A stretch of 64,000 nt of DNA from Zhongshania aquimaris (GTDB lineage: Bacteria > Pseudomonadota > Gammaproteobacteria > Pseudomonadales > Spongiibacteraceae), in NCBI RefSeq assembly GCF_019312595.1, contig NZ_JAHWDQ010000002.1:496001-560000 (forward strand), written 5' to 3'. The notes beneath the pieces are model-generated. The model worked only from the letters and a program-made list of their open reading frames with translations, was not told the DNA's origin and did no database searches. Positions 20,631 through 63,666 of the stretch are shown one piece after another. The position numbers and the translations under genes are program-made. Numbering within the stretch: the stretch's first letter is position 1; the number at the start of each line of letters is the position of its first letter.

Positions 20631-20663
20631 TTAAAGCTCGCATTCTGATCGCATTTTGATCAG
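20631..20663. promoter_or_regulatory. Operator-like word TTAAAGCTCGCATT with repeats (gap 20453-20929)
   Basis: TTAAAGCTCGCATT (20631-20644) is followed by a second TCGCATT (20649-20655), 11 bases after the first TCGCATT. CTGATC (20645-20650) and GATCAG (20658-20663) form an inverted repeat across the second copy. The same 14-mer and the same 11-base spacing recur at 35934-35958. The site lies between the divergent receptor and DapB-like genes. Nothing else is evident in this intergenic stretch. Confidence 0.65.
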
Positions 20664-20929
20664 AGGGGGCTCCAGAGTATTGTGGAATGCCGTGCGGCTC
20701 GACGTTTTAGGGCCTGAAAGCGGAATCGATATGGCAAATACGAGCAATAATCGAATAGTAATTCAGCCGAAATACTGATTAATTGTTTAGCGAAAATATT
20801 GCGGATTCTGCTTGTTGTGAGGTGGCTGTTGTTTGCAGAAAAAGGGCATTTAGCGGCTAGGTGGACACGCTTTGGCAGCAGGTATGAATGTTAAATTGCA
20901 TAGTAAAATAAAACTGTAGAGATCTGTAT

Positions 20930-21961
20930 ATGACAAATTCAGAGAAACCTCGACTGGTAATTTATGGCGTCGGCCAGTTCGGAAAACACGTTGTACGTTT
21001 TGCTGTGCAGAAGGGCTGGCCAATAGTCGCGGCCGTGAATCGCGCTGGTGACAAAGTGGGTAAAGATGTAGGAGAGTTGGCGGGTATTGAAGCGCTTGGT
21101 GTGCTTGTTCAGGATTGCGATAGCGTAGATTACGCAAGTCTAGATGCCGATATTGGCGTGGTAACGACAACCAACTTACTAGATGTAAATCACCAAGCGC
21201 ATACTCGTTTGTTGAGTGCCGGCTTAAATGTGGTCTGTCATGGTACGGAATCGTATTACCCTAAAGCTAACAACCCTGAATTAGCAGTTAAGTTAGATGC
21301 CCTCGCAAAAGAGCGTGGCGTGACATTCACCGGGTCGGGAATATGGGATATGTCGCGTATTTGGTCCGGGATGTTAGTCGCTGGCCCGACAGTGGAATTA
21401 ACCTCGCTTTTCCATTCTAGTCGAACTGATATTGTTCCTCAGTGCGAGAGTAAAGAGCAGACTTACCCGTTTGGTAATACCCTCACCGTTGAGGAATTTC
21501 ACGCGAGAGGTTTGAGTAAAAATCCGATAGCAAAATCGTACAAGTCTATTCCCGAACACGTCTTGGCTGGATTGGGATACACCATTAAGAATACTAAATC
21601 CTATGTTGAGCCAGCAGTGTTTGATGAGGATTATGAAAGTGAGTTTATGGAGTGCGTTATTCCGGCGGGCAACTGCGTTGGTATTCGGATAATTGCAGAA
21701 ATTGAAACGGAAGAAGGCGTGACGGCCAAGTCGGAAATCGAGGTGCGCCATTTTAGGGATGACGATGTTGAGCATATGTTTTGGGAGGTAAACGGTAACC
21801 CGAAAGCGCGAATGCGAGTAGAGCGCGAAGACTCCTCGTATATGTCGGCAGCTTGCCTATTCAACCGTATACCCGACGTTATTGCTGCACCGCCAGGTAT
21901 TCAGCCGGTGTCCAAATTGGGGCCGCTGAAATCAACCGCGCTGATCAACACCAGATCTTAA
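20930..21961 (+). CDS. Dihydrodipicolinate-reductase-like NAD(P)-dependent dehydrogenase
   Basis: The 343-residue protein starts with a Rossmann nucleotide site, LVIYGVGQFGKHVVRFA, then a fold resembling the DapB / 2,4-diaminopentanoate dehydrogenase group (VVTTTNLLDVNHQAHTRLL, SGIWDMSRIWSG). Length exceeds true DapB (about 270), and lysine synthesis is not suggested by the neighbours. The substrate is unknown; an imine or keto intermediate is possible. It begins a run of five forward genes (this gene, sulfotransferase, carboxylic acid reductase, alcohol dehydrogenase, MAPEG protein) with gaps of 18-52 bases, so one operon is likely. Confidence 0.75.
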   Translation: MTNSEKPRLVIYGVGQFGKHVVRFAVQKGWPIVAAVNRAGDKVGKDVGELAGIEALGVLVQDCDSVDYASLDADIGVVTTTNLLDVNHQAHTRLLSAGLNVVCHGTESYYPKANNPELAVKLDALAKERGVTFTGSGIWDMSRIWSGMLVAGPTVELTSLFHSSRTDIVPQCESKEQTYPFGNTLTVEEFHARGLSKNPIAKSYKSIPEHVLAGLGYTIKNTKSYVEPAVFDEDYESEFMECVIPAGNCVGIRIIAEIETEEGVTAKSEIEVRHFRDDDVEHMFWEVNGNPKARMRVEREDSSYMSAACLFNRIPDVIAAPPGIQPVSKLGPLKSTALINTRS

Positions 21962-22006
21962 TCAGCGGCAGGATTTTATCTAAATATTATAATTTAAGGG
22001 TTCAAT

Positions 22007-23194
22007 ATGTTGGATAAACAGCGGTATGAGGCGCAATGCCTAGAGTTAGATGCGGGTAAGCTGATTGTGGAAGCGCAGCGCTTAGCTGGTTTGACAGATT
22101 TCGGACCATTCGAGTTTGAAACGGCTTTAAGAAAATTGCTTGATTGTTTTGCGAAAGATATGCCGCTCAGTGAGCAGGGCATGGCGCTACTTAAGGCAGA
22201 TATAGTCCGCCTGCTAGTCAACCGCTTGCGCATGGAACGAGATATCAAGGCGCATCCAGAGATTTTGCAAGAAGACGTATCCGATCCGTTCATTATCATC
22301 GGTCTGCCAAGATCAGGCACAACTAAACTGCATAAAATGTTCTCCGCTCCAGATACGGTACAGAAAACATTGTTTTGGCGAATGCAAAACCCCGCACCCT
22401 TTCCAGATGCAGTGCCAGGAGAGCCAGATCCAAGAATTGCTGCTATCGCGAACTCAGGCCTTCTAACCGATGATAATCCAGATATGAACGCGGCGCACCC
22501 GATCGCGATAGAGGAGGTCGAGGAAGAGGGGCTTGTATATCAGATGAGCTTCAAGGACTACACGTGGAGTCAGCTGTTGGACAGCCCAGAATATTTTGAC
22601 TGGATAATGTCGGAGTCGAGTACAGAAGGCTACAGCTTGGCCAAGCGTGTTTTTCAGTATCTGCAGTGGCAGGACGGCGGTAAGCGTGGCCGGCCCTGGG
22701 TCTTTAAATCTGTTCCGCATTTTGCTTATTTGGATACCTTGCTTGAGCATTTCCCAAGAGCGACGTTTATACAGCCGCATCGCGACCCGCACAAATGCAT
22801 TCCATCCTTTGCAAAATTTACCAGCGGCTTGGCGCACATCTATGCCGACTCGCTTGATGAACATAAACACGGAGCTGAAACATTAAGAACCTGGAGTATT
22901 GCAATGAAGCGCTTCCTCGATGTGCGGGACCGTTTGCAATTAGATGATCGCATCCTCGATGTGGATTACGAGCTTGTGCGCCACGATCCAATGAAAATAG
23001 TGCGTGAGGCCTATGCAAAGTCGCCTTATGAGTTAAGCCCTGAGGCCGATGAGAAAATGTTGGCTTGGCATACACACAACGTTCAGGGTAAGCACGGCAA
23101 GCATGAGTACTCGCTGGCGGAATTCGGCTTAACGCCCGATGATATAGAAGATAACTTTGGTCACTACATGAGCCGATTTATAAATAAGCACTGA
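22007..23194 (+). CDS. PAPS-dependent sulfotransferase family protein
   Basis: The 395-residue protein has the 5'-phosphosulfate loop FIIIGLPRSGTTKLHK (about residues 85-100) and the 3'-phosphate motif QPHRDPHKCIPSFAKF (about residues 257-272), both of the sulfotransferase family. PWVFKSVPHFAYLDTLLEHFP fits the intervening strand and helix. It should move sulfate from PAPS to a hydroxyl group, probably of a lipid-like acceptor. AAGGG lies seven bases before ATG 22007. It is 18 bases upstream of the carboxylic acid reductase gene, so the acceptor could be the alcohol made by that enzyme and the following dehydrogenase; this is inference. Confidence 0.88.
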   Translation: MLDKQRYEAQCLELDAGKLIVEAQRLAGLTDFGPFEFETALRKLLDCFAKDMPLSEQGMALLKADIVRLLVNRLRMERDIKAHPEILQEDVSDPFIIIGLPRSGTTKLHKMFSAPDTVQKTLFWRMQNPAPFPDAVPGEPDPRIAAIANSGLLTDDNPDMNAAHPIAIEEVEEEGLVYQMSFKDYTWSQLLDSPEYFDWIMSESSTEGYSLAKRVFQYLQWQDGGKRGRPWVFKSVPHFAYLDTLLEHFPRATFIQPHRDPHKCIPSFAKFTSGLAHIYADSLDEHKHGAETLRTWSIAMKRFLDVRDRLQLDDRILDVDYELVRHDPMKIVREAYAKSPYELSPEADEKMLAWHTHNVQGKHGKHEYSLAEFGLTPDDIEDNFGHYMSRFINKH

Positions 23195-23212
23195 TACCTT
23201 TAGGCCAATCGA

Positions 23213-26200
23213 ATGAATAATAACGAGAGACCTGTCGAGCAGCAGGACCGCATAATGCAGAAGATGCAAGCATTGATAAAAAGCGATTCGCAGCTGGCAT
23301 TGTTGATTCCATCGCCGGCGGTGGGCGAAGCAATTTGCGCCCCAGATTTAAGTCTGGCGGAAACGATGGATCGTGCTTTTACGGGCTACGCTGATCGCGA
23401 AGCACTTGGATCTCGCGATTACGATATTGTTTGGTCTCCAGAGTATGAGCTGCATAGCCGCGCGTATAAACCTAAATTCAACACCATTAGCTATGCACAG
23501 TTACAAAGCCGCATACACGCGATTGCCAATGTATGGAAGGATCACCCAGATTATTATGTAAAGCCGGATGAGCGTGTTTGTATCTTTGGATTTACCAGTG
23601 CTGAGTTTACTACTTTAGATTTTGCCACTGCCTATGTTCAAGCCATTACGGTGCCCATGCAAACGGGTACGTCGCAGCAGACCATCGACCAGATATTCGA
23701 GACAATTCGGCCGGCGACAGTGGCTGTTACCGCGAAAAATTTAGTATCGATGGCCGAGCATGTTGCCGGTAAATCTTATATTCGCAATCTTATCGTCTTT
23801 GAGTATGACGAGCGTGACAGCAACGATCAGGCGGCATTTCTTGCGGCAAAAGCTATTCTTGAGGACGAACGCGCCTCCGCGAACTTTATCTCGTTGCAAG
23901 ATTTGGTTGCTCTGGCGAAACGCTCAGGATGGACTCACCTGGCGCCGCATCCCGATGGCGGTGATCGTGTTGCTTCCATTGTCCACTCGTCTGGCAGTAG
24001 CGGCACACCGAAGGCAGCGATGGTGTCGGAAAAGGCAATTCGCTATTACTGGACCAGTATTGTTGAAAATGGGCCGCCTATTGTGGCGCTGTGTCTCGCG
24101 CCATTTAGTCATCTCCTGGGCAAGGGAACGCTTGTTTCTGTGTTAAAGCATGGCGGAACGGCATATTTCACGCTGGCACCCGATATGTCCACCCTGTTTG
24201 ACGACATTCGAATTGCAAGGCCCACTTTCGTAGGTTTTTTCCCACGAATAATAGAACTGATCTATCAGCACTATCAGAATGAAGTTGCTCGGCGTCTGCG
24301 CATGGGTGAGAGCGATGGTACGAGCGATCAGACTGTGCGTGAGCAGGTAAAGCGCGAGCTTGGCCAATCCTACTTAGGCGATAGATTGTGCTTTGCTTTA
24401 TTCGGCGGGTCGCAGATGTCCGCTGAAGTGCGATCGTTCTTCTCGGACTGTTTCGACGTGCAGCTCATGGACGCCTATGGCAATACCGAGGGTGGACAAG
24501 TTGCCGTAAACGGCTTTGTTCAGCGGCCACCGGTATTGGACTACCGACTTAGAGATGTTCCGGAGCTGGGCTACTACACAAGCGACAAACCCTATCCCCG
24601 CGGTGAGTTTTGCTTTAAAAGTATCCAGAGTATTAGCGGATACTATAAGGCGCCGGAAGCGTCGGAAAAATTATTTGATGAAGATGGCTTTATCTGCACT
24701 GGCGATATTGTTGAGGAGTATGAAACCGATCATATCGCCATCATTGATCGCCGCAATGATGTATTAAAACTCTCGCAGGGCGAGTACGTCCCGATTGGCT
24801 CTTTGGGGCCAATTTTTGAGGGCGCAAGTGATGTAATAAGTCAGATCTATATTTACGGCAATTCTCAGCGTGCGTATCTGCTAGCCGTGATTGTGCCTAA
24901 TAGTACCGTAGTGGAGACCTATCTTGGCGACAAGCCGAGTGCCGACGCGGTGCGGGCTTTAATTCATCAAGAGTTGCACCGTGTTGCGAAAGAAGAGGGC
25001 ATTAAAAGCTTTGAGATTCCGAAGGACTTTATCGTCGAATGGGAACTGTTTAGTGAAGAAAACGGCCTGCTTTCCGGCTTGCGTAAGAAATTAAGGCCCG
25101 CGCTGGAAAGGAAGTATGGCGAGCGCCTTGAGGCCATATACGAAAGCCAAGAGGACGCGAGCAAAGCGAAGCGGCGGGAGTTAATCGAAGATAAAGATTC
25201 CCTGAGTGTTCCAGAAATATTAAGCAAACTATTAGAAATTGATCTTAATATTCATGTCGCCAGCAGCACAATGTCTTCCACCTTTTATGAATTGGGCGGT
25301 GATTCATTGGGTGCCGTACTTTTCTCACAGTCACTTGAAGAAGTGTTTGGGGTTGAAGTAGCGGCGGATATGATTCTTAGTCCAACCGGTAACCTCGCCA
25401 AGTGGTCTGCATATATTCAGAAATCACTTCTAGGAAAGTCTGAACGTCCGAATTTTGCCAGTATTCACGGTAAGGGCGCGACCAGGATTACCCGCGAAGA
25501 CCTCGATTTAACTCATTTCATTGCCCCCGCTATTCTCAATAGTAGCCGAGAACTATCGGCACCGCCGGGCCAAGAAAGTACCGTACTACTAACGGGTGCC
25601 AATGGCTTTCTCGGGCGCTTTGTATGTTTGGCGTGGCTGGAAAAATTGGCGCTTACTGGCGGGAAACTGGTTTGCTTAATTCGGGCTGCCGACAACACTT
25701 CCGCAAAGGCGCGGCTCGACAGCGCCTATTCAGGTCAAGATCCGCAACTCGAGTCGCGTTATCAGACCTTGGCCGCCAAGCACCTGGAAGTAATTGCTGC
25801 GGACGTCGGTGAAGAAAAAATGGGTCTCAGCGACGCCGATTATCAACGCTTGCTGCGTAATGTAGATCGCGTTGTTCACGTGGCTGCACTGGTTAATCAT
25901 CGATTCTCATACGCAAATTTGTTTGGTGCGAACGTGTTGGGTACCGCCGAGGTAATTAAGTTCTCTCTGTTAGAGCATAAGAAAAATATCGACTTTATTT
26001 CAACCGTGGCCGTCTACTCCTTGCTGGATACCAGTGAAGTGAGTAGTGAGGAGTCGCCGCTCCTCGATAGCATTGCGCTGAGCGACGATTATGCGTCGGG
26101 GTATGCGGCGAGCAAATGGGCTTGCGAGCAGCTATTACAGAATGCCAACCAGCATTGCGGTCTCGGCATCAATGTATTTCGCGGCGACATGATGTTGCCC

Positions 26201-26785
26201 CATCAACACTATATTGGTCAGGCAAATACAGCGGATATCTTTGTTCGATTGATCTTCAGCATTATCCACACTGGCCTCGCCCCCTATTCATTCTTTCCAC
26301 TGCAAGAAGGTGGTGGCAAGAGACAGGGGCATTACGATGGCGTTCCGGTGGATGTCGTGGCTGCGGCTGTGGTTGGCGCACAAGGTAAACCTGGCGAATA
26401 CCAAACATTTAATATTGAAAATTATCATAGCGATGATGGTTGCTCGCTCGATGCGTTTGTTGACTGGATTGACGTGGAAGGATATCCCATTAAACGCGTT
26501 AGGGATTACCGCGAATGGTTTGATACTTTTAAAGCTGCGCATTTAAATTTGTCGGAAGCTCAGCGCGGCCACTCGGCCTTAGACGTTTTAAGTGCCTTTT
26601 CGGCTCCGCAAGCGCTTGCCAATGAGTTGATGCAGTGCGACAGGTTTAAGCGTCTTGTGGCTGATCTGCTCGGTGAGAGCGGGCTGCCTCATCTTTCGCA
26701 AAATTATATTAGGAAATGCCTGCGAGACATGAATGCGCTGGGGCTGATAGACGTGCCGGCAGCGAATAACTATAAAGTCGTGTAA
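23213..26785 (+). CDS. car: Carboxylic acid reductase (adenylation-carrier-reductase)
   Basis: At 1190 residues this matches the usual CAR length and domain order. The adenylation domain has a P-loop around residue 259 (HSSGSSGTPKAAM) and LMDAYGNTEGG. The carrier domain has phosphopantetheine Ser698 in YELGGDSLGAVL. The NAD(P)H thioester reductase domain starts near residue 792 (VLLTGANGFLGRFV) and has the SDR pair in YASGYAASKWACEQLL. It activates a free acid with ATP, loads it on the carrier arm and releases the aldehyde. It needs a phosphopantetheinyl transferase, not seen here. A zinc alcohol dehydrogenase follows 19 bases later and could take the aldehyde to the alcohol. The substrate range is not visible. 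Confidence 0.95.
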   Translation: MNNNERPVEQQDRIMQKMQALIKSDSQLALLIPSPAVGEAICAPDLSLAETMDRAFTGYADREALGSRDYDIVWSPEYELHSRAYKPKFNTISYAQLQSRIHAIANVWKDHPDYYVKPDERVCIFGFTSAEFTTLDFATAYVQAITVPMQTGTSQQTIDQIFETIRPATVAVTAKNLVSMAEHVAGKSYIRNLIVFEYDERDSNDQAAFLAAKAILEDERASANFISLQDLVALAKRSGWTHLAPHPDGGDRVASIVHSSGSSGTPKAAMVSEKAIRYYWTSIVENGPPIVALCLAPFSHLLGKGTLVSVLKHGGTAYFTLAPDMSTLFDDIRIARPTFVGFFPRIIELIYQHYQNEVARRLRMGESDGTSDQTVREQVKRELGQSYLGDRLCFALFGGSQMSAEVRSFFSDCFDVQLMDAYGNTEGGQVAVNGFVQRPPVLDYRLRDVPELGYYTSDKPYPRGEFCFKSIQSISGYYKAPEASEKLFDEDGFICTGDIVEEYETDHIAIIDRRNDVLKLSQGEYVPIGSLGPIFEGASDVISQIYIYGNSQRAYLLAVIVPNSTVVETYLGDKPSADAVRALIHQELHRVAKEEGIKSFEIPKDFIVEWELFSEENGLLSGLRKKLRPALERKYGERLEAIYESQEDASKAKRRELIEDKDSLSVPEILSKLLEIDLNIHVASSTMSSTFYELGGDSLGAVLFSQSLEEVFGVEVAADMILSPTGNLAKWSAYIQKSLLGKSERPNFASIHGKGATRITREDLDLTHFIAPAILNSSRELSAPPGQESTVLLTGANGFLGRFVCLAWLEKLALTGGKLVCLIRAADNTSAKARLDSAYSGQDPQLESRYQTLAAKHLEVIAADVGEEKMGLSDADYQRLLRNVDRVVHVAALVNHRFSYANLFGANVLGTAEVIKFSLLEHKKNIDFISTVAVYSLLDTSEVSSEESPLLDSIALSDDYASGYAASKWACEQLLQNANQHCGLGINVFRGDMMLPHQHYIGQANTADIFVRLIFSIIHTGLAPYSFFPLQEGGGKRQGHYDGVPVDVVAAAVVGAQGKPGEYQTFNIENYHSDDGCSLDAFVDWIDVEGYPIKRVRDYREWFDTFKAAHLNLSEAQRGHSALDVLSAFSAPQALANELMQCDRFKRLVADLLGESGLPHLSQNYIRKCLRDMNALGLIDVPAANNYKVV

Positions 26786-26804
26786 CAAAAATTGGGGAAT
26801 TGTG

Positions 26805-27809
26805 ATGATAAAGGCCTATGCAGCATCGTTACCGGGTGGACCACTCGAAGCGTTTGAATATGATCCTGGAGTATTGGGTATTACCGAAGTTGAGTTAGAC
26901 GTTCTGTACGCGGGAATTTGTCACACCGACCTCGGCATGATTGATAACGATTGGGGCTTCTCTCAATATCCACTTGTTCCCGGGCACGAAATTGTTGGCC
27001 GAGTTTCGCAGCTAGGCGCCGGCGTTAAATCTCTGCAAATCGGACAGATCGTCGGGCTAGGCTTTCATGCCGGATACTGTTTGGCATGTGATGAATGTAA
27101 TAGCGGTGATCATAATCTATGTGCTGCGGCACGTCCGATCATGGCGGGGCGTCATGGTGGGTTCGCCGATAAGGTCCGCGCTGAAGAGGCAAGTCTTGTA
27201 GCTATTCCAGACTCTATCGATCTGAGCTCAGCTGGCCCTATGTTTTGTGCAGGCGTAACGGTATTTAATCCGTTTTTGCAGTTCAATATAAAGCCATCTG
27301 ACAAGGTGGCAATTGTGGGTATCGGGGGTTTGGGACACCTCGCACTGCAAGTCGCCAATGCCTGGGGCTGCGAAGTAACCGCGTTTACGTCAAGCGGTAA
27401 AAAAATAGAGGAGGCGTATTCACTCGGTGCCCATCATACCTTGAATTCGAAAGACCCTGATCAAATCGCGTCAGCGGCCGGAAAATTTGACTTGATTATT
27501 TCTGCGGTAGACGTTTCCCTAGATTGGCGTTTGTATCTGCAAACCTTAAAGCCACGTGGTCGTTTACATTTTGTGGGCGCGTCAGCGATACCGCTGGATC
27601 TTACGCCACTGGACTTAATGAGCGCTCAACTTTCCCTGTCGGGATCAATGGTGGGTAGTCCGTCTACAATGGTAAAAATGCTAGATTTTTTCCAGCGCCA
27701 TGATATCAAGCCAGTCGTGGAAATGTGTTATTTCGATGAAATTAACGATGCGATAGCTAAGTTAAGAAATGAAAAAGTTTACTACCGACTGGTGTTGCAG
27801 CATCGATAA
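26805..27809 (+). CDS. Zinc-dependent alcohol dehydrogenase (medium-chain, YahK/CAD-like)
   Basis: The 334-residue MDR protein has catalytic-zinc residues in AGICHTDLG and VPGHEIVG, the four-cysteine structural zinc lobe YCLACDECNSGDHNLC, and the nucleotide motif AIVGIGGLGHLALQ. The family interconverts primary alcohols and aldehydes with NADP(H) or NAD(H). Placed directly after the carboxylic acid reductase gene, it most simply reduces the aldehyde product. ATG 26805 is preferred since GGGG ends seven bases before it; GTG 26802 is in the same frame. Confidence 0.92.
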   Translation: MIKAYAASLPGGPLEAFEYDPGVLGITEVELDVLYAGICHTDLGMIDNDWGFSQYPLVPGHEIVGRVSQLGAGVKSLQIGQIVGLGFHAGYCLACDECNSGDHNLCAAARPIMAGRHGGFADKVRAEEASLVAIPDSIDLSSAGPMFCAGVTVFNPFLQFNIKPSDKVAIVGIGGLGHLALQVANAWGCEVTAFTSSGKKIEEAYSLGAHHTLNSKDPDQIASAAGKFDLIISAVDVSLDWRLYLQTLKPRGRLHFVGASAIPLDLTPLDLMSAQLSLSGSMVGSPSTMVKMLDFFQRHDIKPVVEMCYFDEINDAIAKLRNEKVYYRLVLQHR

Positions 27810-27861
27810 CTGGCTTGGGTTCGCGGCGCTAAATACAATAACCTCATAACGAGAATTTACT

Positions 27862-28260
27862 ATGTCAATTCCACTACTCTGTATTGCACTACTGGCTATT
27901 CTGCTTATCTCTTTGGCGTTTACGGTGTCCATGGCGCGTGGAAAATCCAACATGATGTACGGATACAAGACCGACCCTGAAGATCGCTTATACAAAGCAG
28001 TCCGCGCCCACGGTAATGCTACTGAATACGCCCCCATCATAGCGATATTGATTTATATCCTAAGCACAATGCCGATTTCTATGTGGGTAATGTGGTGCAT
28101 GATAATAGTGACACTATCACGTTACCTGGCAGCGGCGGGTCTGCTGTTCCCCACGTCGTTGGCCAAGCCCAATGTTCTGAGAGTAGTGGGAACCCTGGGT
28201 ACCTATCTGGCGGCTTTGGGCCTGTGTGTTGCGCTTTTCCTAAAGGCAGTCAATTTGTAA
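27862..28260 (+). CDS. MAPEG family membrane protein
   Basis: This 132-residue protein has about four membrane helices and the MAPEG-type segment AVRAHGNATEYAPIIAIL near residue 47. MAPEG proteins (microsomal GST and leukotriene C4 synthase relatives) sit in the membrane, and some conjugate glutathione to or isomerise lipophilic compounds; bacterial ones are mostly uncharacterised. It follows the alcohol dehydrogenase by 52 bases and may be the last gene of that operon. A detoxifying role for reactive aldehyde or lipid intermediates is a guess from context. Confidence 0.85.
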   Translation: MSIPLLCIALLAILLISLAFTVSMARGKSNMMYGYKTDPEDRLYKAVRAHGNATEYAPIIAILIYILSTMPISMWVMWCMIIVTLSRYLAAAGLLFPTSLAKPNVLRVVGTLGTYLAALGLCVALFLKAVNL

Positions 28261-28291
28261 AGTGCAAATCTTCTGCTTTCGTATGCGGGGC

Positions 28292-28307
28292 TACGATAAC
28301 TATCGTA
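28292..28307. promoter_or_regulatory. Short palindrome before arylsulfatase
   Basis: TACGATA-AC-TATCGTA (7-base arms, 2-base centre) lies 62 bases upstream of the sulfatase ATG and is followed by a run of A. With no T-run on the plus strand it looks more like a protein-binding site than a terminator. Confidence 0.35.
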
Positions 28308-28368
28308 AAAAGATGTCAATATTCTACCTATACGCGGCATTGTTCGCGTTCAAGACATGGAAAATTGA

Positions 28369-46135: not shown

Positions 46136-46142
46136 AAGTTTA

Positions 46143-53057: not shown

Positions 53058-53151
53058 GGCGCTCCGTGTTTCTTTCCGTGGGTACCTAGGTACTTGAATA
53101 ATGTAATCTTCGGATCTTTGGTCATCGTCCTATCCACGTTTTGTAGCGACG

Positions 53152-53781: not shown

Positions 53782-54199
53782 AGGGTACTTTGCTCTTGGT
53801 TAACAATGGTGCTGATATTTTATTTATACTGAATCTTACTACAATAAAGCGTAATACCAAATGGTGATTGCTGCGCCGAGCTCTGGAGCCCAGCAATTAG
53901 AGGCTTTTCGGTCATCCTTGTTTAGTATAAGAATTGCTGCGGAGAGTTTTGTGTATCACAGCAGGTGTTTGTGCAGAAGTGCTCTGCTAGTGCTTATTTA
54001 TTAGACTATGGGCCTTGTCTATCGTAAAGCTAGCTCGCTAGCGTCCATGCTGATTTACAGATAATCGCTTTGCATAGATATCTCCGCTATCTGTCTACTG
54101 CAGTCGAGGTGTTGTTGGAGTGCGCCGGTCAGTAACTTATCTCGGGTAATGCTGTGCGATATCGTTAGTAAATAACATAATTTTCAAATAGTTATGATC
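53782..54199. other. Intergenic region between tetR promoter and dioxygenase end
   Basis: This 418-base stretch holds the presumed tetR promoter and the weak TACTAC/GTAATA repeat. No ORF, RNA or clear terminator for the dioxygenase gene was recognised. Confidence 0.5.
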
Positions 54200-55096: not shown

Positions 55097-55219
55097 ATTG
55101 ATCATCTTATTGGTTGACGTTGCCGCTGAGTTCGCTAGCCACGTGCTGTTTGTTGGGTGTAAATCGCTGCTTTGGCGAAGTGCTATAGGGATCACAACTT
55201 AGGATTAAAGCCCTTCATT

Positions 55220-55232
55220 TTAAACTCGCATT
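55220..55232. promoter_or_regulatory. Operator-like word TTAAACTCGCATT (gap 55097-55481)
   Basis: An exact copy of the 13-mer lies between the divergent dioxygenase and KstD-like genes. A partial match, AAACGAGTGTGAA near 55351, is oriented toward the forward gene. Nothing else was recognised in this 385-base gap. Confidence 0.6.
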
Positions 55233-55481
55233 TTGGGTTTGAGATGATTTTGAAAGTTTACAGCTGTGATTAAAGAGCGTGCGAAAAAATTGGGAGAAAG
55301 GTACAGAAACTGGAGGCTTGAAGATCAATGAAATCAGTAAAATGAGTAATAAACGAGTGTGAATTGAGGCTTGTCATGAATAGTGTGGAAGCAGAATTTT
55401 ACGTTGTTCTTTCGGCTTTTAGACAGTAGCCGATTAGTGGCAGTAATAGCGCTATAACAAAGATAAGATACTGGAGCTTCA

Positions 55482-57110
55482 ATGAAAAAGACGACGGGTA
55501 TTGAGCGACGAAAATTTATTAAAGGTGTTGCCGGTGGTGCCTTGCTGGCGACCGCTCAGGTAGCCAGCAGTGCGCGGGCAGACGACAAGCCTGTTGCCAG
55601 CGACTGGGATCGCGAAGTCGATGTGGTGGTGATTGGTTCTGGGACCGGTTTATGTGCAGCACTGGTTTGTGCCAAGGCGGGGAATGATGTGATTGTCTTG
55701 GAGAAAAACAGCGGCCCGGGTGGCAATACACTGGTTTCTGGTGGTGTGTTGTGGATCCCTAATAATCACGTGATGGCAAAGAATGGTTTAGCAGACAGCC
55801 GAAATCAGGCGATGGCCTACCTGCGTAAGCTAGCGCAGGGCCAGTCGGATGAGACGTTGATGGAGGCCTTTTTGGATAATGGGCCTGAAGCCGTTCAATT
55901 TATAGAGTTCAATACTGATATTACATGGCGGGCGACCCAAATACCGGGAATAGACCGAGTGTCTGATTATCATCCGGAATGGCATGGGAGCGTGCCGTAC
56001 GGCCGCTCAATTGAGCCTGAGACAGACATTATCGGGCATATGGCCGGAGGCTATCTGGTGTCATCGCTGCTGGTGTCGGCTCAGAAGGCGGGTGTTGAAT
56101 TACTCACCGAGGCGCCCGCCACCGAGTTGGTGACTCGAACGTTCGCGGACGGTAGCAAGAAAGTTATAGGTGTTATCGCGGAGTATCAGGGCCAATTACT
56201 GCGTATCCGAGTGCGCAATGGGGTGCTAATCGCGAGTGGCGGATTTGAACGTAATAGTACGATGAAGACGCATTTCTTGCGTGGTCCTTCGCCCTATACC
56301 TTGGGAACCGAAACAAATACCGGTGACGGCATACGTATGGGGATGGCGATAGGCGCGGACTTGCGCAATATGAATGAGCTGTGGGGCATTACTGTTTATA
56401 AGGGCGACGCAGAAATTAATGGCGCTAAACGAGGTGGTATTTCGTTGATGGCCCAGTTTGATCGATCTACTCCCGGCATGATTTGCGTGAATCGATATGG
56501 TGAACGTTTTTGTAATGAGTCTGCGGATTATGACTCTACTTGGCGAAGCTATCACACATGGGAAAATTGGGGAGACCTGAGATATAGAAACTTACCGGCA
56601 TTTCACATCTTTGACCACACCAGCCGTGAGCGTTTCGGAATTTTTGGTCGGAGCAAAGATCAGTCATTACCTGATTGGATTGCTAAAGCGGATACGCTGT
56701 CAGGCTTAGCGAAAAAGTTGGGTATTGATGAGGCCGGCCTAAATGCGACGGTAGCGCGTTTTAACATGGGGGCTCGCGAAGGTCGGGATCCGGATTTTCA
56801 TCGGGGAGAGAGTGCGTGGGATGTGCACGGCACGGGTGATTCCTCGTTAGTCCTAGCCCCGCTGGAGCAAGGTCCATTTTACGGCGCGGAGGTTTCTCCA
56901 GCAGACCTGGGAACCTGTGGCGGCCTCCGTGTTAATTCTCAAGCGCAAGTGATTGATGTTTTTGAGCGCCCTATTGAAGGGCTGTATTGCGCTGGAAATG
57001 CGTCCGGTGTTGGCTCTCCAGGGGCTAGCTATGGGGGCGGTGGTGGAACGATAGGTCCCGCAATGACGTTTTCCTATATAGCAGGTAAAGCACTTTCAGC
57101 TTTGAGTTAG
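55482..57110 (+). CDS. Tat-exported FAD dehydrogenase, 3-ketosteroid Delta1-dehydrogenase-like
   Basis: The 542-residue flavoprotein opens with a twin-arginine signal (ERRKFIKGVAGGALLATA, cleavage near SARA), then the FAD-binding VVVIGSGTGLCAALVCAKAG and GGNTLVSGGVLWIPNN. It ends with GLYCAGNASGVG and ASYGGGGGTIGPAMTF, where Tyr517 and the Gly four residues on line up with the KstD catalytic Tyr/Gly. It probably introduces a double bond into ring A of a 3-ketosteroid or a related ketone. Known KstD proteins are not normally Tat-exported, so action in the periplasm would be unusual. It converges on the other KstD gene, with a terminator between them. Confidence 0.85.
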   Translation: MKKTTGIERRKFIKGVAGGALLATAQVASSARADDKPVASDWDREVDVVVIGSGTGLCAALVCAKAGNDVIVLEKNSGPGGNTLVSGGVLWIPNNHVMAKNGLADSRNQAMAYLRKLAQGQSDETLMEAFLDNGPEAVQFIEFNTDITWRATQIPGIDRVSDYHPEWHGSVPYGRSIEPETDIIGHMAGGYLVSSLLVSAQKAGVELLTEAPATELVTRTFADGSKKVIGVIAEYQGQLLRIRVRNGVLIASGGFERNSTMKTHFLRGPSPYTLGTETNTGDGIRMGMAIGADLRNMNELWGITVYKGDAEINGAKRGGISLMAQFDRSTPGMICVNRYGERFCNESADYDSTWRSYHTWENWGDLRYRNLPAFHIFDHTSRERFGIFGRSKDQSLPDWIAKADTLSGLAKKLGIDEAGLNATVARFNMGAREGRDPDFHRGESAWDVHGTGDSSLVLAPLEQGPFYGAEVSPADLGTCGGLRVNSQAQVIDVFERPIEGLYCAGNASGVGSPGASYGGGGGTIGPAMTFSYIAGKALSALS

Positions 57111-57150
57111 AAAATTAATAGACGGCTTGCGGCGAATCATATTTGTACGG

Positions 57151-57171
57151 AAGTGAGCTAGCAGCTCACTT
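57151..57171. terminator. Bidirectional terminator between two KstD-type genes
   Basis: Perfect arms AAGTGAGCT (57151-57159) and AGCTCACTT (57163-57171) with a 3-base loop lie between convergent stops at 57110 and 57198. A long T-run is absent, so strength is uncertain. Confidence 0.7.
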
Positions 57172-57197
57172 TACAGATGTCACAATATTTGACTCAC

Positions 57198-58895
57198 CTA
57201 ACACTCTGTATCAGCGATGTGTTTTGCAGCGAGGTAGCCAAAGGTCATTGCCGGACCAAGGGTCGAACCAGGGCCTGGGTATGTGGTGAGTATACCCATT
57301 GCACAGTTACCCGTGGCATATAGTCCGGGTATGGGATCGCCGCTGGTGGTAAGTACCCGTGCTTGTTCATCAATTACCATTCCGCCCATGGTGCCAAAGT
57401 CACCGGCATCAAGCTTCATTGCGTAGAACGGTGGCTTAGCGAGCGGCGCCAAACAGGGGTTCGGTTCCACTGTTGGGTCAGAGTAATACCGATCATAGGC
57501 TGAATCGCCGCGGCCGAAGTCACAGTCTTTACCGGTCTTGGCGTACTCATTCACTTGTATCACGGTTTCCTCAAGGGCTTTCGCATCCACACCGATCGTT
57601 CTTGCAAGTGCACTCAGGCTATTTTCTTTCGATAAAAATCCACTTGTAAAATAGGATTTTGGAATTAAAAAATCTGGCCACATCTTGCCGGGAAACAGCG
57701 GGCCGACAATATAATTTTTGCGGTGGGTAGAATCAAAAATCATGTGGTAGGGCTCGTTTGAGTCGCCCTTTATGTGTTTACTATGGAGTTCCTTAATAAA
57801 TGACATATAGTTTTGCGATTCATTGGCAATGCGTTTTCCTGATGAGTCTATTACGTAGTTACCTGGCAGGGATTTCTCAAAGATACTCAGACGCGGGTAG
57901 CTTTCGCCTGGTACTGATATGGTATTTGTCCACCATGCACTGTTCATAAGCCGAGTGGCTGCGCCGATACGTTTTGCGGCAAGCAAGCTATCACCCGTAT
58001 TGCACCTACTGCCGGCGCTCCACTGAGCGTCAGTGGGGCGGGGAAGATTTTCGACACGCAAGTCTTGATTGTGTTCGAATCCTCCCGCGGCAAGGATCAC
58101 ACCCATTTTCGCGCGGATATTCAGCGGTGTGCCATTTCGCTCAGCCCTAACGCCGACAACACGACCATCTTCAAGCAGCAAGTCGAGCAATTTCGTATTG
58201 AGATGAAGTGGTATATCTCGTTTTAGTAACGATAACCGTAAGCGTGCAATACCGGCCGCGCCCATAGTCAGCCTGCGAGACTGCTTGCCCTTTATTCGCA
58301 TGGGAATGTCGAGAATGTATTTGATAAGCTCCCTAGCAACGATTGTTAACCACCCAGGGAGTTGGCCCATTAGCAAGTGCAATTCCTGCTGAGTAAATTG
58401 CAAGCGATCAAATACCTTGATCATTGGATTCGGTGCGTTTTGATATTGAAATTGTTCACCGAGATCTGAAGTTCTTATCGGCGCAGGCTCCATTGAGCGG
58501 TGGCCAGTTTTGGCGCCCTTGGCGCTAGAAAAATAGTCGGGGTATTCGGCAAGACTTTCATATCTAACATCACTATTCTTATGCAGAAAGTCGATCATTT
58601 CTGGGCCGTACTTCAGGTAAGTGCGTAACATCTCATCGCTGGTGTCTTCGCTGGGGATGGTTTCGCGAAGGTAGCTAAATGCTTCATCTAGCGAATCTTC
58701 TGCGGCCGCAGCCTTAGCATACCGATTACATGGAACCCACACGCCGCCACCTGACATTGCACTTGTGCCACCGTAGTATTTGTCCTTTTCGATAATCATC
58801 ACACTTTCGGCGCCGAGAATATGGGAGCTCAGTGCAGCGGTCATACCGCCATTTCCACTTCCGACTACCAGTACGTCAACTTCAATATCTTTCAT
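57198..58895 (-). CDS. kstD: 3-ketosteroid Delta1-dehydrogenase
   Basis: The 565-residue protein has VDVLVVGSGNGGMTAALSSH for FAD, GGTSAMSGGGVWVPCNRYA, and the family-defining C-terminus GLYATGNCAMGILTTYPGPGSTLGPAMTFGYLAAKH with Tyr539 and Gly543 at the KstD Tyr/Gly catalytic positions. It should remove hydrogens from C1 and C2 of a 3-ketosteroid, a key step before B-ring opening. No signal peptide is seen. It is the last gene of the set hydratase, acetaldehyde dehydrogenase, aldolase, FAD protein, KstD, and lies 51 bases after the preceding FAD gene. Confidence 0.92.
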   Translation of the reverse strand: MKDIEVDVLVVGSGNGGMTAALSSHILGAESVMIIEKDKYYGGTSAMSGGGVWVPCNRYAKAAAAEDSLDEAFSYLRETIPSEDTSDEMLRTYLKYGPEMIDFLHKNSDVRYESLAEYPDYFSSAKGAKTGHRSMEPAPIRTSDLGEQFQYQNAPNPMIKVFDRLQFTQQELHLLMGQLPGWLTIVARELIKYILDIPMRIKGKQSRRLTMGAAGIARLRLSLLKRDIPLHLNTKLLDLLLEDGRVVGVRAERNGTPLNIRAKMGVILAAGGFEHNQDLRVENLPRPTDAQWSAGSRCNTGDSLLAAKRIGAATRLMNSAWWTNTISVPGESYPRLSIFEKSLPGNYVIDSSGKRIANESQNYMSFIKELHSKHIKGDSNEPYHMIFDSTHRKNYIVGPLFPGKMWPDFLIPKSYFTSGFLSKENSLSALARTIGVDAKALEETVIQVNEYAKTGKDCDFGRGDSAYDRYYSDPTVEPNPCLAPLAKPPFYAMKLDAGDFGTMGGMVIDEQARVLTTSGDPIPGLYATGNCAMGILTTYPGPGSTLGPAMTFGYLAAKHIADTEC

Positions 58896-58946
58896 ATCGA
58901 CCTTCTTCCTGGAACATTGCTTATCATTTGGTGGTCATTACAGCCA

Positions 58947-60614
58947 TTATTTTGATTTTGCTAAGGCGGCGCTGTGACCAGCGCGGCGGCCGGAATAGAC
59001 GCAATCGGCTAGTGATAGGCCGCTAACATAAGAGTTTGAGCAGATACCGACCGCGCTTCGACCTGCGGCAAACAAGCCGCCTATACTATTGCCGTCGACG
59101 TCTAATACCGCGCCTGTCTGTTCATTGACGCTTAGCCCCCCCAGTGTTATCGCAAAGCAGGGAACCCGCCAGTTCTGCAAGGAGATATCGATAGCGTAGA
59201 AGGGGCTCTGCTTGATAGCTTGAAGAAAGTCAGTCGCTTTGTGGTATCTGTCTTTTCCAGCAATGGCATCTGAATTGTAATTGTCGATTGTGCGCTGAAG
59301 TTGCGAATAGTTAATCCGGCACTTGTCCGCTAAGCCATCCAGTGTTGTCGCTTTTCTTGAGGAAATGCTTAGGAACAATCGCGCTGGCGCCCATTGGAAT
59401 AGTTGCATCTTGCCTATTCGAGTTTCTGCGCTTGCCTCAGTCATCATTTTCTCGTCGAGGATAAGGTAGGCGCGCTCGCAACCATTTTCTAAAACGCGAT
59501 CAGCTGCCGTGGCGCCGTAGAGATCTTCGTTACATATCCGCTCACCTTTCTCGTTGACGATAATCCCTTTCAGCATAGTATTTGGCGGTGCGAAAAAGCG
59601 CCAGGCAGAGACCTTGTTCATGTGCTGTACTCGGCCGCCAGCGCTCACGCCTAAACTGATTCCCATGCCTATACAATCCTCCCCCAGTGGGCGCGCAGGT
59701 GTATAAGAAGGAGCGAGCGTCTTAACTAAATGACGATTATAAATATATCCACCTGCGCTTAAGATAACGCCCTGATTTACTCTTAGAAATTTAGTTTTTC
59801 CGCGGCGGCGCAGTCGGTGAACCAGTTTTCGAATTAGTGTTCCTGTTTTAGGTTCAAGCACGGCAAATTTATTCGCCAGCCGGTTCACTGCCTTTATTGT
59901 GGCCTGGGTAATTTTATTGTCCGGAGCTTGTAAGTACTCGACTCCCACCACGCGATCTTGTTGATCTAGAATTAGTCGGGTAGCTTCGCAGTGCGGTTTT
60001 ATCTCAATATTATCGTGCTGCTGAGCAGATTGATTTAGAGACTCGAAGAGTACACGACCGGTGAACCCTTTGCCTTTCACGCGGTGGCCGCGACGGGCGG
60101 GTGTGGCGATATCTCGGTAGGGTGATGCGAGTTCGTTGCCGGAATAGTAAAGAAAATAGTTTTCTGGGGGATATGATGTCTTTTCGTTATAGGGCGTACT
60201 GTCAAAAGTGACACCGTGCTTTTCCAGCCATGCTAGATTTGGATTGCTCTGTTCGCAAAAATGGCGAAGGGTCTCCTCGGACACGGCACCCAGGGTTTCC
60301 TGGCGCAAATAGTTCATCATATTCTCAGCGCTGTCTTCGACGCCTGCTTGACTCTGGTAGGTGGTGCCGCCGCCAGCGTAGATGATACCGCCACTCAGCG
60401 CGCTTGCGCCGCCGCCATTGAGGCGGTCGAGCACCGTCACCTTAACTCCCAGAGAACTGGCTTCAAGTGCTGCACATGCACCGGCGGCGCCGTACCCTAT
60501 TACTGCGACATCAGTGGTATTGTCCCAAATAATATCGTTGCAGTGCTGAACTCGGTATGAGGTGCTAACCTGGGATTTCAGGGTATCTAGTATATTTTTG
60601 TTATTGATACTCAT
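58947..60614 (-). CDS. FAD-binding dehydrogenase, KstD/Delta4-ene dehydrogenase-like
   Basis: The 555-residue flavoprotein has VAVIGYGAAGACAALEASS, GGGASALSGGIIYAGGG and a C-terminal GLFAAGRSAVGICSNSYVSGLSLADCVYSGRRAG. The Tyr-Pro-Gly-x-Gly motif of KstD is replaced by SNSYVSG, so position specificity differs. Roles such as Delta4(5alpha/5beta)-dehydrogenation (TesI-like) or removal of another steroid hydrogen pair are plausible. No signal peptide. It is paired with kstD and follows the aldolase gene by 109 bases. Confidence 0.83.
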   Translation of the reverse strand: MSINNKNILDTLKSQVSTSYRVQHCNDIIWDNTTDVAVIGYGAAGACAALEASSLGVKVTVLDRLNGGGASALSGGIIYAGGGTTYQSQAGVEDSAENMMNYLRQETLGAVSEETLRHFCEQSNPNLAWLEKHGVTFDSTPYNEKTSYPPENYFLYYSGNELASPYRDIATPARRGHRVKGKGFTGRVLFESLNQSAQQHDNIEIKPHCEATRLILDQQDRVVGVEYLQAPDNKITQATIKAVNRLANKFAVLEPKTGTLIRKLVHRLRRRGKTKFLRVNQGVILSAGGYIYNRHLVKTLAPSYTPARPLGEDCIGMGISLGVSAGGRVQHMNKVSAWRFFAPPNTMLKGIIVNEKGERICNEDLYGATAADRVLENGCERAYLILDEKMMTEASAETRIGKMQLFQWAPARLFLSISSRKATTLDGLADKCRINYSQLQRTIDNYNSDAIAGKDRYHKATDFLQAIKQSPFYAIDISLQNWRVPCFAITLGGLSVNEQTGAVLDVDGNSIGGLFAAGRSAVGICSNSYVSGLSLADCVYSGRRAGHSAALAKSK

Positions 60615-60723
60615 GCTGCCGGAGCCCTTCCGAAGTAACTTATTTATAAAGTCATAACTAACGATTATTTTGCTGGTACTTGCTCGCTATTCGCGGGTTT
60701 TTCTTGCATTTCTGCTTATTTCA

Positions 60724-61746
60724 CTAGGCGTTCGCTTTGGCCATCTCCATTGCAACGTCTTCGATCAGGTCTTCCTGGCCGCCAATGGCTTTGCGTTTTG
60801 CCATTTCCAAAAGGATGTTTTGAGACGGCACACCGTATTTTTTGCTGGCGCGCTTGGCGAAGAGTAGGAATGACGAGTAAACCCCCGCATAACCTAGAAT
60901 GAGTGAGTCTCGATCTACGCGAATTGGATGATCCATCATCGGCGTCACCAGGTCTTCAGCGACGTCCATGAGCTTGAAAAGGTCTACATTCGTGTCAGCA
61001 CCGAGACGATCAAGCGTCGCGGCGAAAACCTCGAGAGGCGTGTTACCCGCTCCGGCGCCCAAGCCCGCGGCTGATCCATCGATGCGATTGGCGCCGGCTT
61101 CCAGTGCCGTCAATGAGTTTGCGACACCCATGCCCATGTTGTGGTGACCGTGAAACCCAAGCTCGGTGCGCGGGTCCAGCTCCTGGCGCAGCAGTTGGAT
61201 TCTGGCGCTAACGTCGTCGGGCAGCATATAGCCTGCGGAGTCCGTGCAGTAAATACAGTTTGCGCCATACGATTCCATTAGTTTGGCTTGCTCAAGGAGG
61301 GCTTGCGGAGAGATCATATGTGCCATCATTAAAAAGCCAACCGTATCGAGCCCCATTTTTCGAGACAGCCCAATATGTTGTTCGGAAACGTCTGCCTCAG
61401 TGCAATGAGTAGCAACGCGAATGGTGCCAACACCACAGTCTGCCGCCATCCTTAAATGCTCTACTGTACCGATGCCGGGCAGTAGCAAAGCGGAAATCCG
61501 CGCGTTTTTCATCTTGGGAACAACGGCATTCAGATACTCCTGGTCGGAGTGCGCAGGGAAGCCGTAGTTGACTGACGCACCGCCGAGCCCATCGCCGTGA
61601 GTGACCTCAATAATCGGGATCCCCGCTGCATCCAGACCGCTTGCGATATCTACCATCTGCTCTAGGCTGATTTGATGACGCTTTGGGTGCATGCCGTCCC
61701 TCAGGCACATATCGTGAAGGGTGACTTTTCTGCCTTTTAAGTTCAT
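60724..61746 (-). CDS. tesG: 4-hydroxy-2-oxovalerate/oxohexanoate aldolase (HsaF/TesG/DmpG)
   Basis: The 340-residue enzyme has [18 protein letters not shown] with metal-binding Asp, [15 protein letters not shown], the HxH metal pair in [11 protein letters not shown] and [13 protein letters not shown], all of the DmpG/BphI family at normal length. It splits 4-hydroxy-2-oxo acids into pyruvate and an aldehyde. The aldehyde passes directly to the partner dehydrogenase encoded 17 bases upstream. In the steroid pathway the substrate is the six-carbon acid from ring A. The tes name is by context; dmpG, mhpE or hsaF are equivalents. Confidence 0.95.
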
Positions 61747-61763
61747 TGCTTAAGCCTGTGTTT

Positions 61764-62666
61764 TTATGAGCTATGTGAAGTGGGCTGCTTAAAGACGGAT
61801 TGCGCATACATCTCTGCAGTCCTTAATGCCGCCGCTGTCATGATGTCTAAATTCCCTGAATACTTTGGAAGGAAATCGCCCAAGCCTTCTACTTCCATAA
61901 AGCAAGTGACTCGATTTTCTTCAAAGATGGGCCCATTCTTGAGCTTGTATCCTGGGACGTATTTTTGTACTTCTGCGACCATGTTTAGTACTGACGCGGT
62001 GATTGCCTCTTGATCGGGCGTATCGCTGGTGAGGCAGTGAATGGTGTCCCGCATAATGAGCGGCGGCTCGGCAGGATTAATCACAATTATTGCCTTGCCT
62101 ACTTTAGCGCCACCAATCGCCTCGATGGCGCTGGCGGTGGTACGCGTGAACTCGTCAATATTTTTGCGGGTACCAGGGCCGACAGACTTCGATGAAACCG
62201 TTGCTACGATTTCGCCGTAGTCGACGGCTTGCACGCGACTGACCGCAGCGACAATGGGAATGGTTGCCTGGCCACCGCACGTCACCATATTGACATTGCT
62301 TTTATGGCCTTCATTTATCAGCGTTTGCAGATTAACCGGCGGAATACAAAATGGACCGATTGCCGCAGGTGTTAAATCAATCATCATTGCGCTTTGCTCA
62401 TTCACTAGCGTAGAGTTCTTGGCGTGCGCGTATGCCGATGTCGCATCAAAGACGATTGCAATGCCATCATCTTTCATACTAGGAATCATGCCCTCGACTC
62501 CGTCGGTGGTGACGTTTAAACCAAGTTCCCTGGCGCGTTGAATACCAGCGGAGTCTTCAATCCCTACCATCCATACTGGTTCTATCCATTGGCTTCGCAG
62601 TGCTTTCAGCAACAGGTCGGTACCGATATTTCCCGGGCCGATAATGGCGGCCTTTAGTTTGTTCAT
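61764..62666 (-). CDS. tesF: Acylating acetaldehyde/propionaldehyde dehydrogenase (HsaG/TesF/DmpF)
   Basis: The 300-residue protein has [18 protein letters not shown] for NAD, the catalytic Cys130 in [12 protein letters not shown] (132 in DmpF) and [14 protein letters not shown]. It oxidises the aldehyde from the aldolase to acyl-CoA; in steroid ring-A breakdown this gives propionyl-CoA. It is three bases after the hydratase gene and 17 before the aldolase gene, a tight operon. Equivalent names are hsaG and dmpF. Confidence 0.95.
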
Positions 62667-62669
62667 AGC

Positions 62670-63476
62670 CTAGTTTGCCTTCTGTTTAAAGCTTATGTTT
62701 GTCGAGCCATAGCCAATTAGCTCCATGGTAAACGTGTCGCCGGGTTTAGCGGGTTCGAGTGGAACCACTGAACCTGACAGTATAATTTCACCGGCTTTGA
62801 AGCTGGTGCCGAACTCGCCGAGCGTGTTTGCTAGCCATGCCACGGCAGTGAGTGGGTTGCCTTGCACGGCTGAACCGAGGCCCTGACTCACAAGACACCC
62901 ATTTTTATGCATGACGATTTTTAAGTTGGCGAGATCAATTCCGGTGGGATTTATATGCTCGTCTCCCAGCGCGTAAAATCCGCAGGATGCGTTATCAGCG
63001 ATGGTGTCCTGGATTTTTATACGCCAGTTGTTAATTCGTGAATCTACAATTTCAAAGCAGGGGATAATGTACTCAGTGGCCGTCAGTACGTCCTGTTCAC
63101 TTACCCCCGGTCCCTGCAGGTCGCTTTTAAGTTTGAAGGCTATTTCCGCTTCGACCTGAGGTTGGATTAGGGCGTTTGCGATATCTATTTCTGCGCCGTT
63201 TGGCACGGCCATGGCGCTCGTCAGAAATCCGAAATCCGGTTGAAATACACCTAGCATCTCCTGAACACTGGCGGATGTGACGCCTATTTTCTTGCCTACA
63301 ATGGTTTCGCCATTTTTGTCGATTCGCGCCTGAAGAAATCCCCGTGATATGTGATACGCGTCATCAATACTTATCTCTGGGAAGCGTTCGGTAAAAGGCA
63401 GAATGGGTGTGCATGTCGTCATCGCATCGAACAGTTCTTTAGAAAGTTCGAGTCGTTGCTGGTTTGTTAAACTCAT
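62670..63476 (-). CDS. tesE: 2-hydroxypenta/hexa-2,4-dienoate hydratase (HsaE/TesE/MhpD)
   Basis: The 268-residue member of the fumarylacetoacetase-like hydratase family has KKIGVTSASVQEMLGVFQPDFGFL, the metal-site residues in QPQVEAEIAFKL and ILSGSVVPLEPAKPGDTFTM near the end. It adds water to the dienoate released after meta-cleavage and hydrolysis. ATG 63476 is used since GGGGAC precedes it; the frame opens at 63503. It is the first gene of the operon. The word TTAAACTCGCATT lies 151 bases upstream. Confidence 0.92.
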   Translation of the reverse strand: MSLTNQQRLELSKELFDAMTTCTPILPFTERFPEISIDDAYHISRGFLQARIDKNGETIVGKKIGVTSASVQEMLGVFQPDFGFLTSAMAVPNGAEIDIANALIQPQVEAEIAFKLKSDLQGPGVSEQDVLTATEYIIPCFEIVDSRINNWRIKIQDTIADNASCGFYALGDEHINPTGIDLANLKIVMHKNGCLVSQGLGSAVQGNPLTAVAWLANTLGEFGTSFKAGEIILSGSVVPLEPAKPGDTFTMELIGYGSTNISFKQKAN

Positions 63477-63626
63477 GAAGTCCCCGTCGAAGTGTTGTCG
63501 CAATTAACGCCGCGTCGATTCAGATATTAATGAACGCGTAATCGCCTAAGTCGCAGACTTTAAAAAGTAACGAAGCTGCGCATCAGCAATATTGGTTGGT
63601 CATGATAGGAGTGGGACGAACTCATC

Positions 63627-63666
63627 TTAAACTCGCATTCCGTATATCGCGGGAGGTAAATGCGAG
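63627..63666. promoter_or_regulatory. Operator-like word with inverted repeat (gap 63477-63801)
   Basis: TTAAACTCGCATT (63627-63639) and AATGCGAG (63659-63666) form 8-base inverted arms CTCGCATT/AATGCGAG with a 19-base spacer. Each arm is oriented toward one of the divergent operons (hydratase and flavin reductase). Nothing else was assigned in this 325-base gap. Confidence 0.65.

Follow-up and report, generated by a model that had tools for sequence, protein, structure and literature searches.

What is a short word, repeated between the genes of a steroid-degradation locus, doing there, and which protein reads it? The locus lies in a stretch of 64,000 nucleotides from Zhongshania aquimaris (C5:496001-560000, contig NZ_JAHWDQ010000002.1; hereafter the window), part of a genome of 4.25 Mb in 12 contigs (G000). 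An earlier sequence-only reading of it had proposed that the word marks a steroid/lipid regulon. Here we find this proposal supported, the locus offering a TetR-family protein, a complete pathway with two TonB receptors and about eight candidate promoters. We put at roughly 0.8 the probability that the sigma-70-type promoters of the steroid block contain an operator, that the word is its conserved portion and that it is bound by that TetR protein (53152-53781).

The word occurs in two exact forms. A search of the window returned the 13-mer TTAAACTCGCATT at 51022, 55220 and 63627 and the 14-mer TTAAAGCTCGCATT at 20631 and 35934, the five positions given by the sequence-only reading; all five copies are, as it had claimed, intergenic and upstream of minus-strand genes, the identities it had assigned to these genes were confirmed by Pfam and NCBIfam, and the second TCGCATT that it had seen 11 bases beyond the 14-mers is found at 20649 and 35952. 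Repetition of the 13-mer was likewise rightly judged to exceed chance, with three exact copies compared with 0.0024 expected per 64 kb from base composition (0.16 per genome). At up to two mismatches the window contains nine matches against a shuffled mean of 2.4, and none of 100 shuffles reaches nine. Neither a further exact 13-mer nor a further TTAAANCTCGCATT was found elsewhere in the whole genome, so that the exact copies, rather than being scattered, all fall within the steroid block, the main ones intergenic and oriented toward genes. The genome-wide count at up to two mismatches is near background (93+58 versus 75+54 for the reversed pattern), and thus only the exact and extended forms are informative. 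A one-mismatch copy at 48584, inside a gene, is probably a chance match; a one-mismatch word at C1:825585 was set aside as probable chance; and the literal 13/14-mer among relatives, with matches in 19 of 115 genomes (G000 included), mostly single, proved uninformative.

Read toward the downstream gene, the copies align without gaps as AATGCGAG followed by [CT]TTwAnnT[GA]A, and therefore we read the 13-mer and 14-mer as one element differing by substitutions. Its consensus in gene direction, AAwGCGAG-TTn-AAnnTGAG, repeats directly at an 11-bp step, and 11 bp is the strongest direct periodicity in the eight sites of G000, in ten sites of two other genomes of the order (G012 and G116) and in all 18 together. 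Three 11-bp units are found at receptor sites, twice in G000 and once in G116, where the first unit is poorer; a receptor site in a further genome, G028, does not have this three-unit layout. A matrix made from the five exact sites brought out second-tier copies, intergenic and gene-oriented, at 63659 (+), 39516 (-) and 39577 (+), plus weaker ones. The sites and the proposed regulator are listed below with their strands and with scores from matrix R1, which was built from 13 sites of G012, G116, G226 and G245 and none from G000.

20626..20655, minus strand: putative operator of TonB receptor 18062-20545, containing the 14-mer at 20631; three direct half-sites with an 11-bp period, AATGCGAT, AATGCGAG and TAATTAAG; 7.0 bits (13.8 with the all-site matrix R2, of which it is a member by construction).
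35929..35958, minus strand: putative operator of TonB receptor 33629-35848, containing the 14-mer at 35934; three direct half-sites, AATGCGAC, AATGCGAG and TAAGTAAG; 9.8 bits.
39480..39516, minus strand: putative operator-promoter of acyl-CoA dehydrogenase 38160-39317; -35-like TTAAAC, -10-like TAGAAT; 13.2 bits.
39577..39614, plus strand: putative operator-promoter of the probable DUF1330/acyl-CoA dehydrogenase/thiolase operon 39645-45302; -10-like TAGAAT; 13.4 bits.
50998..51034, minus strand: putative operator-promoter of the probable acyl-CoA ligase operon 45344-50914; -35-like TTTAAT, -10-like TACGAT; 19.5 bits.
51994..52005, minus strand: weak and doubtful copy before enoyl-CoA hydratase 51140-51916; 6.3 bits.
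53152..53781, minus strand: TetR-family regulator, the proposed cognate repressor; TetR_N 6.2e-13, 209 aa.
55196..55232, minus strand: putative operator-promoter of the extradiol dioxygenase (HsaC/TesB-like) 54200-55195; -10-like TAAGTT; 16.2 bits.
63602..63639, minus strand: putative operator-promoter of the tesE-like hydratase/aldehyde dehydrogenase/aldolase operon; -35-like TTTAAG, -10-like TATCAT; 19.7 bits, the genome's best among the candidates scored.
63659..63679, plus strand: weak copy oriented toward the divergent genes for flavin reductase, KshA, and HsaA-like and HsaD-like proteins (from 63802 on); 4.1 bits.

The weaker copies that the earlier reading had placed near 39502, 39577 and 51994 are thus all present; the first two, at 39516 (-) and 39577 (+), score 13.2 and 13.4 bits, the third 6.3. 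The divergent pair 39516/39577 resembles a divergent pair in G116. Two of the listed copies stand back to back at 63632-63666, their first bases 19 bp apart, in the divergent region that separates the flavin reductase/KshA genes from the tesE-like operon. At the extradiol dioxygenase, the true start is probably near 55105, because the listed GTG start abuts the -10 and family homology begins at residue 36.

The element also keeps a fixed relation to a -10-like box. TAnnnT lies 31-32 nt past the element's first base in 17 of 24 sites (four at offset 31, 13 at offset 32; five of the eight G000 sites), compared with 15 occurrences in total at the remaining 38 offsets (20 to 59) of the same sites; TAnnnT played no part in site choice, and orthologous sites among the 24 are non-independent observations. 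If TAnnnT is taken as the -10, the conserved TTnAAn sits at -35 with a spacer of 17-18 bp. This spacing suggests that TTnAAn is probably the -35 box and that the operator is built into the promoter, so that of the free-standing intergenic word first proposed the intergenic part stands, and the free-standing part gives way to a promoter with a built-in operator. TAnnnT is not at this spacing in seven sites: 20644, 35947 and 63659 of G000, those upstream of tetR in G012 and G116, and two of the three in G028.

In a whole-genome matrix scan of the kind that the sequence-only reading had suggested, five window sites lead G000: R1 ranks them at 19.7, 19.5, 16.2, 13.4 and 13.2 bits, the next candidate at 12.3, among the 150 of 2608 first-look candidates scored. 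Over 195 kb, none of 500 column-permuted matrices matches either the top score of R1 or its 12 hits of at least 12; ten of these are block sites, and of the other two, one lies upstream of a cluster-A gene at -6325 and the other within a gene. With the matrix R2, for which all 21 sites were used, seven window sites, members by construction, come first, and the score then falls to 11.3 bits.

Whether the element follows its proposed regulator can be asked across genomes. The TetR protein has the hallmarks of its family, an N-terminal HTH domain and a length of about 200 residues, and it is the sole regulator recognised in the block (Pfam/NCBIfam, open reading frames [ORFs] of at least 99 aa). 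Five of 390 genomes of the order, G000 among them, score 352-379 bits for this protein, the next best scoring 126; the orthologues in G012, G116, G028 and G130 are 37-42% identical to it, and the HTH is conserved across all five. A scan of the same genomes with the strict pattern AANGCGAGTTNNANNTGAG gave 17 matches in 12 genomes, and its reversed control ten single matches in ten genomes, which places single matches at background. Two or more strict copies occur in three genomes only (G000, 2; G012, 2; G116, 4), all three among the five with a TetR orthologue, and clustered copies were seen in no other of the 390.

The four loci with TetR orthologues were fetched on the presence of TetR alone, ahead of any motif search there. 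Strong copies were found in two of them: with the window's matrix, G012 has four intergenic, gene-oriented sites scoring at least 16 in 40 kb, and G116 has seven in 60 kb. In 40 kb of G028 (GC 65%) three relaxed matches turned up, again intergenic and gene-oriented, before a receptor, the ligase and an FAD enzyme, and G130 has one relaxed match only. The orthologue of the ligase 49283-50914 is preceded by a site in G000, G012 and G116 and by a relaxed one in G028, TonB receptors by sites in G000 and G116 and a relaxed one in G028; further targets at the G012 and G116 loci are the tetR orthologue itself, with copies 138 nt (G012) and 237 nt (G116) upstream, acyl-CoA dehydrogenases and a ChsH2/KAS-III-like protein. 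Conservation before orthologous genes in relatives, which the earlier reading had made a test of the regulon, is thus found in G012 and G116 and in relaxed form in G028, and the sites make up a coherent local regulon, conserved upstream of orthologues and sharing their distribution with a single regulator.

Eleven comparison stretches (the C1 cluster of G000, G001, G002, G004 twice, G005, G007 three times, G008 and G010) yielded one hit of at least 16, at 17.6 in G002, which is inside a gene and which we took as chance; the next best, 14.2, is also inside a gene and comes from the second HsaC locus of G000 (C1, 810-870 kb). In the HsaC-neighbour stretches of the congeners G001, G002, G004, G005, G007, G008 and G010, the best hits are intragenic except at G007:600k (8.1, intergenic).

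Of the single strict matches, the two that we examined, in G226 and G245, lie next to TetR genes of more distant kinship; the G226 copy overlaps the longest ORF called there, yet precedes its first ATG. In G245 (C31:5421-5439) the same operator lies between the TetR gene and an MPAB/rubber-oxygenase-type gene, and this operator type may therefore also serve other lipid oxidation. In G653, whose TetR relative is a distant one (149 bits), what stands beside the tetR gene is no more than a weak look-alike (4.9). An inverted third half-site of varying quality, AAnnTGAGC-N4-GCTCAnnTT, follows the repeat in sites of G012, G116, G245 and G226; when we looked for a palindromic operator, inverted half-sites were recognisable at the G012 and G116 sites and absent from the window sites.

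The sequence-only reading had named two candidate regulators, this TetR protein and the LuxR-type protein 11995-13152, and of these it is TetR that the distribution, and the copies beside tetR genes, favour. That the LuxR protein, which is TeiR-like, binds the word, as TesR/TeiR drives the steroid genes of Comamonas, is very unlikely. It does carry a LuxR-type HTH and lie near the block, and such proteins are described as steroid regulators in Proteobacteria in the account of PMC6678751; but its gene is outside the block, it has no homologue at E 1e-20 in the G012 or G116 stretches, and the congener G005, with a 69% orthologue, has a best matrix score at background (12.5 bits), which is not the pattern of a TesR/TeiR regulon. 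On distribution, we reject the LuxR protein as the cognate regulator. Less improbable, though we still consider it unlikely, is some other regulator, an activator next to the -35, encoded outside the island or by an island ORF without a recognised domain. The centre of the half-site near -40 and the direct 11-bp repeat would suit class II activators, and the tetR gene of G000 has no preceding copy; on the other side, when window genes were compared with the G012 and G116 stretches, TetR was the one recognised regulator with a match there, and copies adjoin tetR orthologues as well as more distant tetR genes. We give hardly any weight to the idea that promoter duplication left the copies behind as relics, or that they belong to a small repeat element, in either case devoid of regulatory meaning: the exact identity of the 13-mers inside one block is what such an origin would leave, but flanking sequence differs from copy to copy, and ahead of orthologous genes in other genera the element turns up again, at a fixed spacing to a -10-like box.

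Several observations weigh against a TetR operator. TetR dimers usually bind inverted repeats, and the element is a direct repeat; the inverted pattern AAnnTGAGC-N4-GCTCAnnTT has three matches in the window, a chance level, all away from the sites. A half-site beside the -35 would equally suit an activator, no copy precedes tetR in G000, and three block ORFs (31938, 33123, 69650) have no Pfam hit. The two 14-mer sites score low with R1 (9.8 and 7.0 bits) and, like 63659, lack TAnnnT at 31-32, while the second-tier upstream regions as a group do not differ significantly from controls (P 0.12), 4 of the 36 ranking above all 52 controls. R1 itself is not wholly independent, because its sites were found with a window-derived matrix or pattern; its genome ranking covers 150 of 2608 candidates, and its scores of 13.4 and 13.2 are not above the best of the controls G010 (13.6) and G018 (13.5), neither of which has a TetR orthologue. 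G028 and G130 have the orthologue and no strict copy. Finally, the hypergeometric P of about 1e-6 for the coincidence of multi-copy genomes with TetR overstates the case, because the pattern was derived from sites of the same three genomes, because the cut at two copies was chosen once the counts had been seen, and because G000 and G012 share a genus.

If the TetR reading is right, the order toward the gene would be a half-site AAwGCGAG (about -44 to -37), TTnAAn, AAnnTGAG one helical turn on, and TAnnnT. TetR would most likely bind the half-sites as dimers and block RNA polymerase. Its release, by a breakdown product of steroid or steroid-CoA type, would open the receptor, side-chain and ring-degradation operons together. 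In this way TetR would repress about eight promoters, covering the complete steroid pathway and the two TonB receptors. The sequence itself shows the element, its spacing to TAnnnT, its restriction to the block in G000, its recurrence ahead of orthologous genes and its co-occurrence with this TetR; we infer direct binding by TetR, repression rather than activation, and the kind of ligand. Covering a promoter is the usual way in which TetR proteins repress, and the elements span about -44 to -25, which together favour repression over activation by TetR or by an unseen protein; its release by a pathway intermediate is favoured by analogy with KstR (PMC6678751, PMC8399759) and EdcR (PMC8700777), as these are presented there.

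How, then, does the system compare with known ones? The KstR operator, taken as TnnAACnnGTTnnA, has no match in the window. The window TetR scores 30.3 bits against the KstR model (NCBIfam NF033703), below the cut-off of 280. In role, KstR and KstR2 of Actinobacteria resemble the proposed regulator, being described as TetR-type repressors of steroid uptake and of side-chain and ring degradation (PMC6678751, PMC8399759); the KstR operator is reported to stand before its own gene (PMC8700777), and KstR homologues are, according to one review, absent from bile-acid-degrading Proteobacteria (PMC8399759). EdcR of Caenibius tardaugens is described as a TetR-type repressor of a proteobacterial steroid cluster (estrogen) with an operator proposed over the -10 box (PMC8700777); its proposed palindrome, TnnCnnTACnAnTnGTAnnGnnA, is matched twice in the window when up to two mismatches are allowed, which is chance level (1.88 on average in shuffled sequence), and it is by operator sequence that we set EdcR apart. 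TesR/TeiR of Comamonas testosteroni regulates the same 9,10-seco pathway in Proteobacteria, in the account of PMC6678751, and differs in being a LuxR-family protein needed for induction, whereas the window's LuxR is unlinked to the sites. That TetR-family proteins can sit on pseudo-direct or non-palindromic DNA has precedents in MtrR and Mce3R, the latter a double TetR protein, as described in PMC6755732 and PMC11667970; the likeness drawn here is one of operator layout.

The block that carries the sites appears to have a history of its own, and we consider it likely, from comparison with G005, to be mobile or acquired.

17700..64000, no strand: window part of the block that is missing from the syntenic place in congener G005, the block continuing to about 72 kb, past an integrase.

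DNA from -14378 to 17669 (window numbering) gives a gapped alignment to G005 at 82-95% identity, which breaks off there and is not taken up again before 72057; at the block's place G005 carries 8.6 kb of other DNA. A phage-type integrase with an Arm-DNA-bind_2 domain lies beyond the window's end at 70191-71423, followed by tRNA-Arg(CCG) at 72245-72321; the G005 match ends inside this tRNA, and no tRNA was called at the corresponding place in G005. Mobility is likely rather than proven, because no attachment-site repeat was found for the island and its right edge rests on one 243-bp match. The island reading agrees with the patchy, horizontal spread of proteobacterial steroid pathways described in PMC4810484.

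By Pfam and NCBIfam the block encodes two receptors, a sulfotransferase, a carboxylic-acid-reductase-like protein, a sulfatase, side-chain beta-oxidation enzymes, the dioxygenase, ketosteroid dehydrogenases, a hydratase, aldolase and acetaldehyde dehydrogenase, and flavin reductase, KshA, HsaA-like and HsaD-like proteins, which we take to be a complete-looking 9,10-seco pathway. The sulfotransferase (22007-23194), carboxylic-acid-reductase-like protein (23213-26785) and sulfatase (28369-30651) perhaps point to sulfated steroids, and a ketopantoate hydroxymethyltransferase of CoA biosynthesis (31063-31899) perhaps meets CoA demand. A search of 293 relatives gave nothing above 52% identity to the block dioxygenase, and a related-locus search for the same protein gave six SAR86 loci at 48-50% identity. 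G000 has four HsaC-like dioxygenases in all, at C5:491799 (left of the window), 54200-55195, C1:827837 and C1:853537, and two large steroid clusters lie side by side, a LuxR-adjacent one shared with G005 and the other in the TetR block.

These patterns may extend beyond one locus. The odds seem to us roughly even that a dedicated, undescribed TetR family governs complete sterol/bile-acid pathways in scattered Proteobacteria, reads tandem 11-bp direct half-sites around the -35, and moves together with the genes it controls in a mobile steroid island, here beside the host's LuxR-adjacent cluster. Among the titles listed for the terms used, no TetR regulon with this operator was found in the open-licence PMC literature, and knowledge of how steroid degradation is regulated in Proteobacteria is called limited in a review (PMC8399759). 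For this poorly known proteobacterial steroid switch the window yields a candidate regulator, about eight candidate promoters and an operator sequence, and clusters akin to it are known from a congener and from two further genera of the order. A possible TetR operator laid out as a direct repeat and, possibly, a part for a steroid biosensor come with it.

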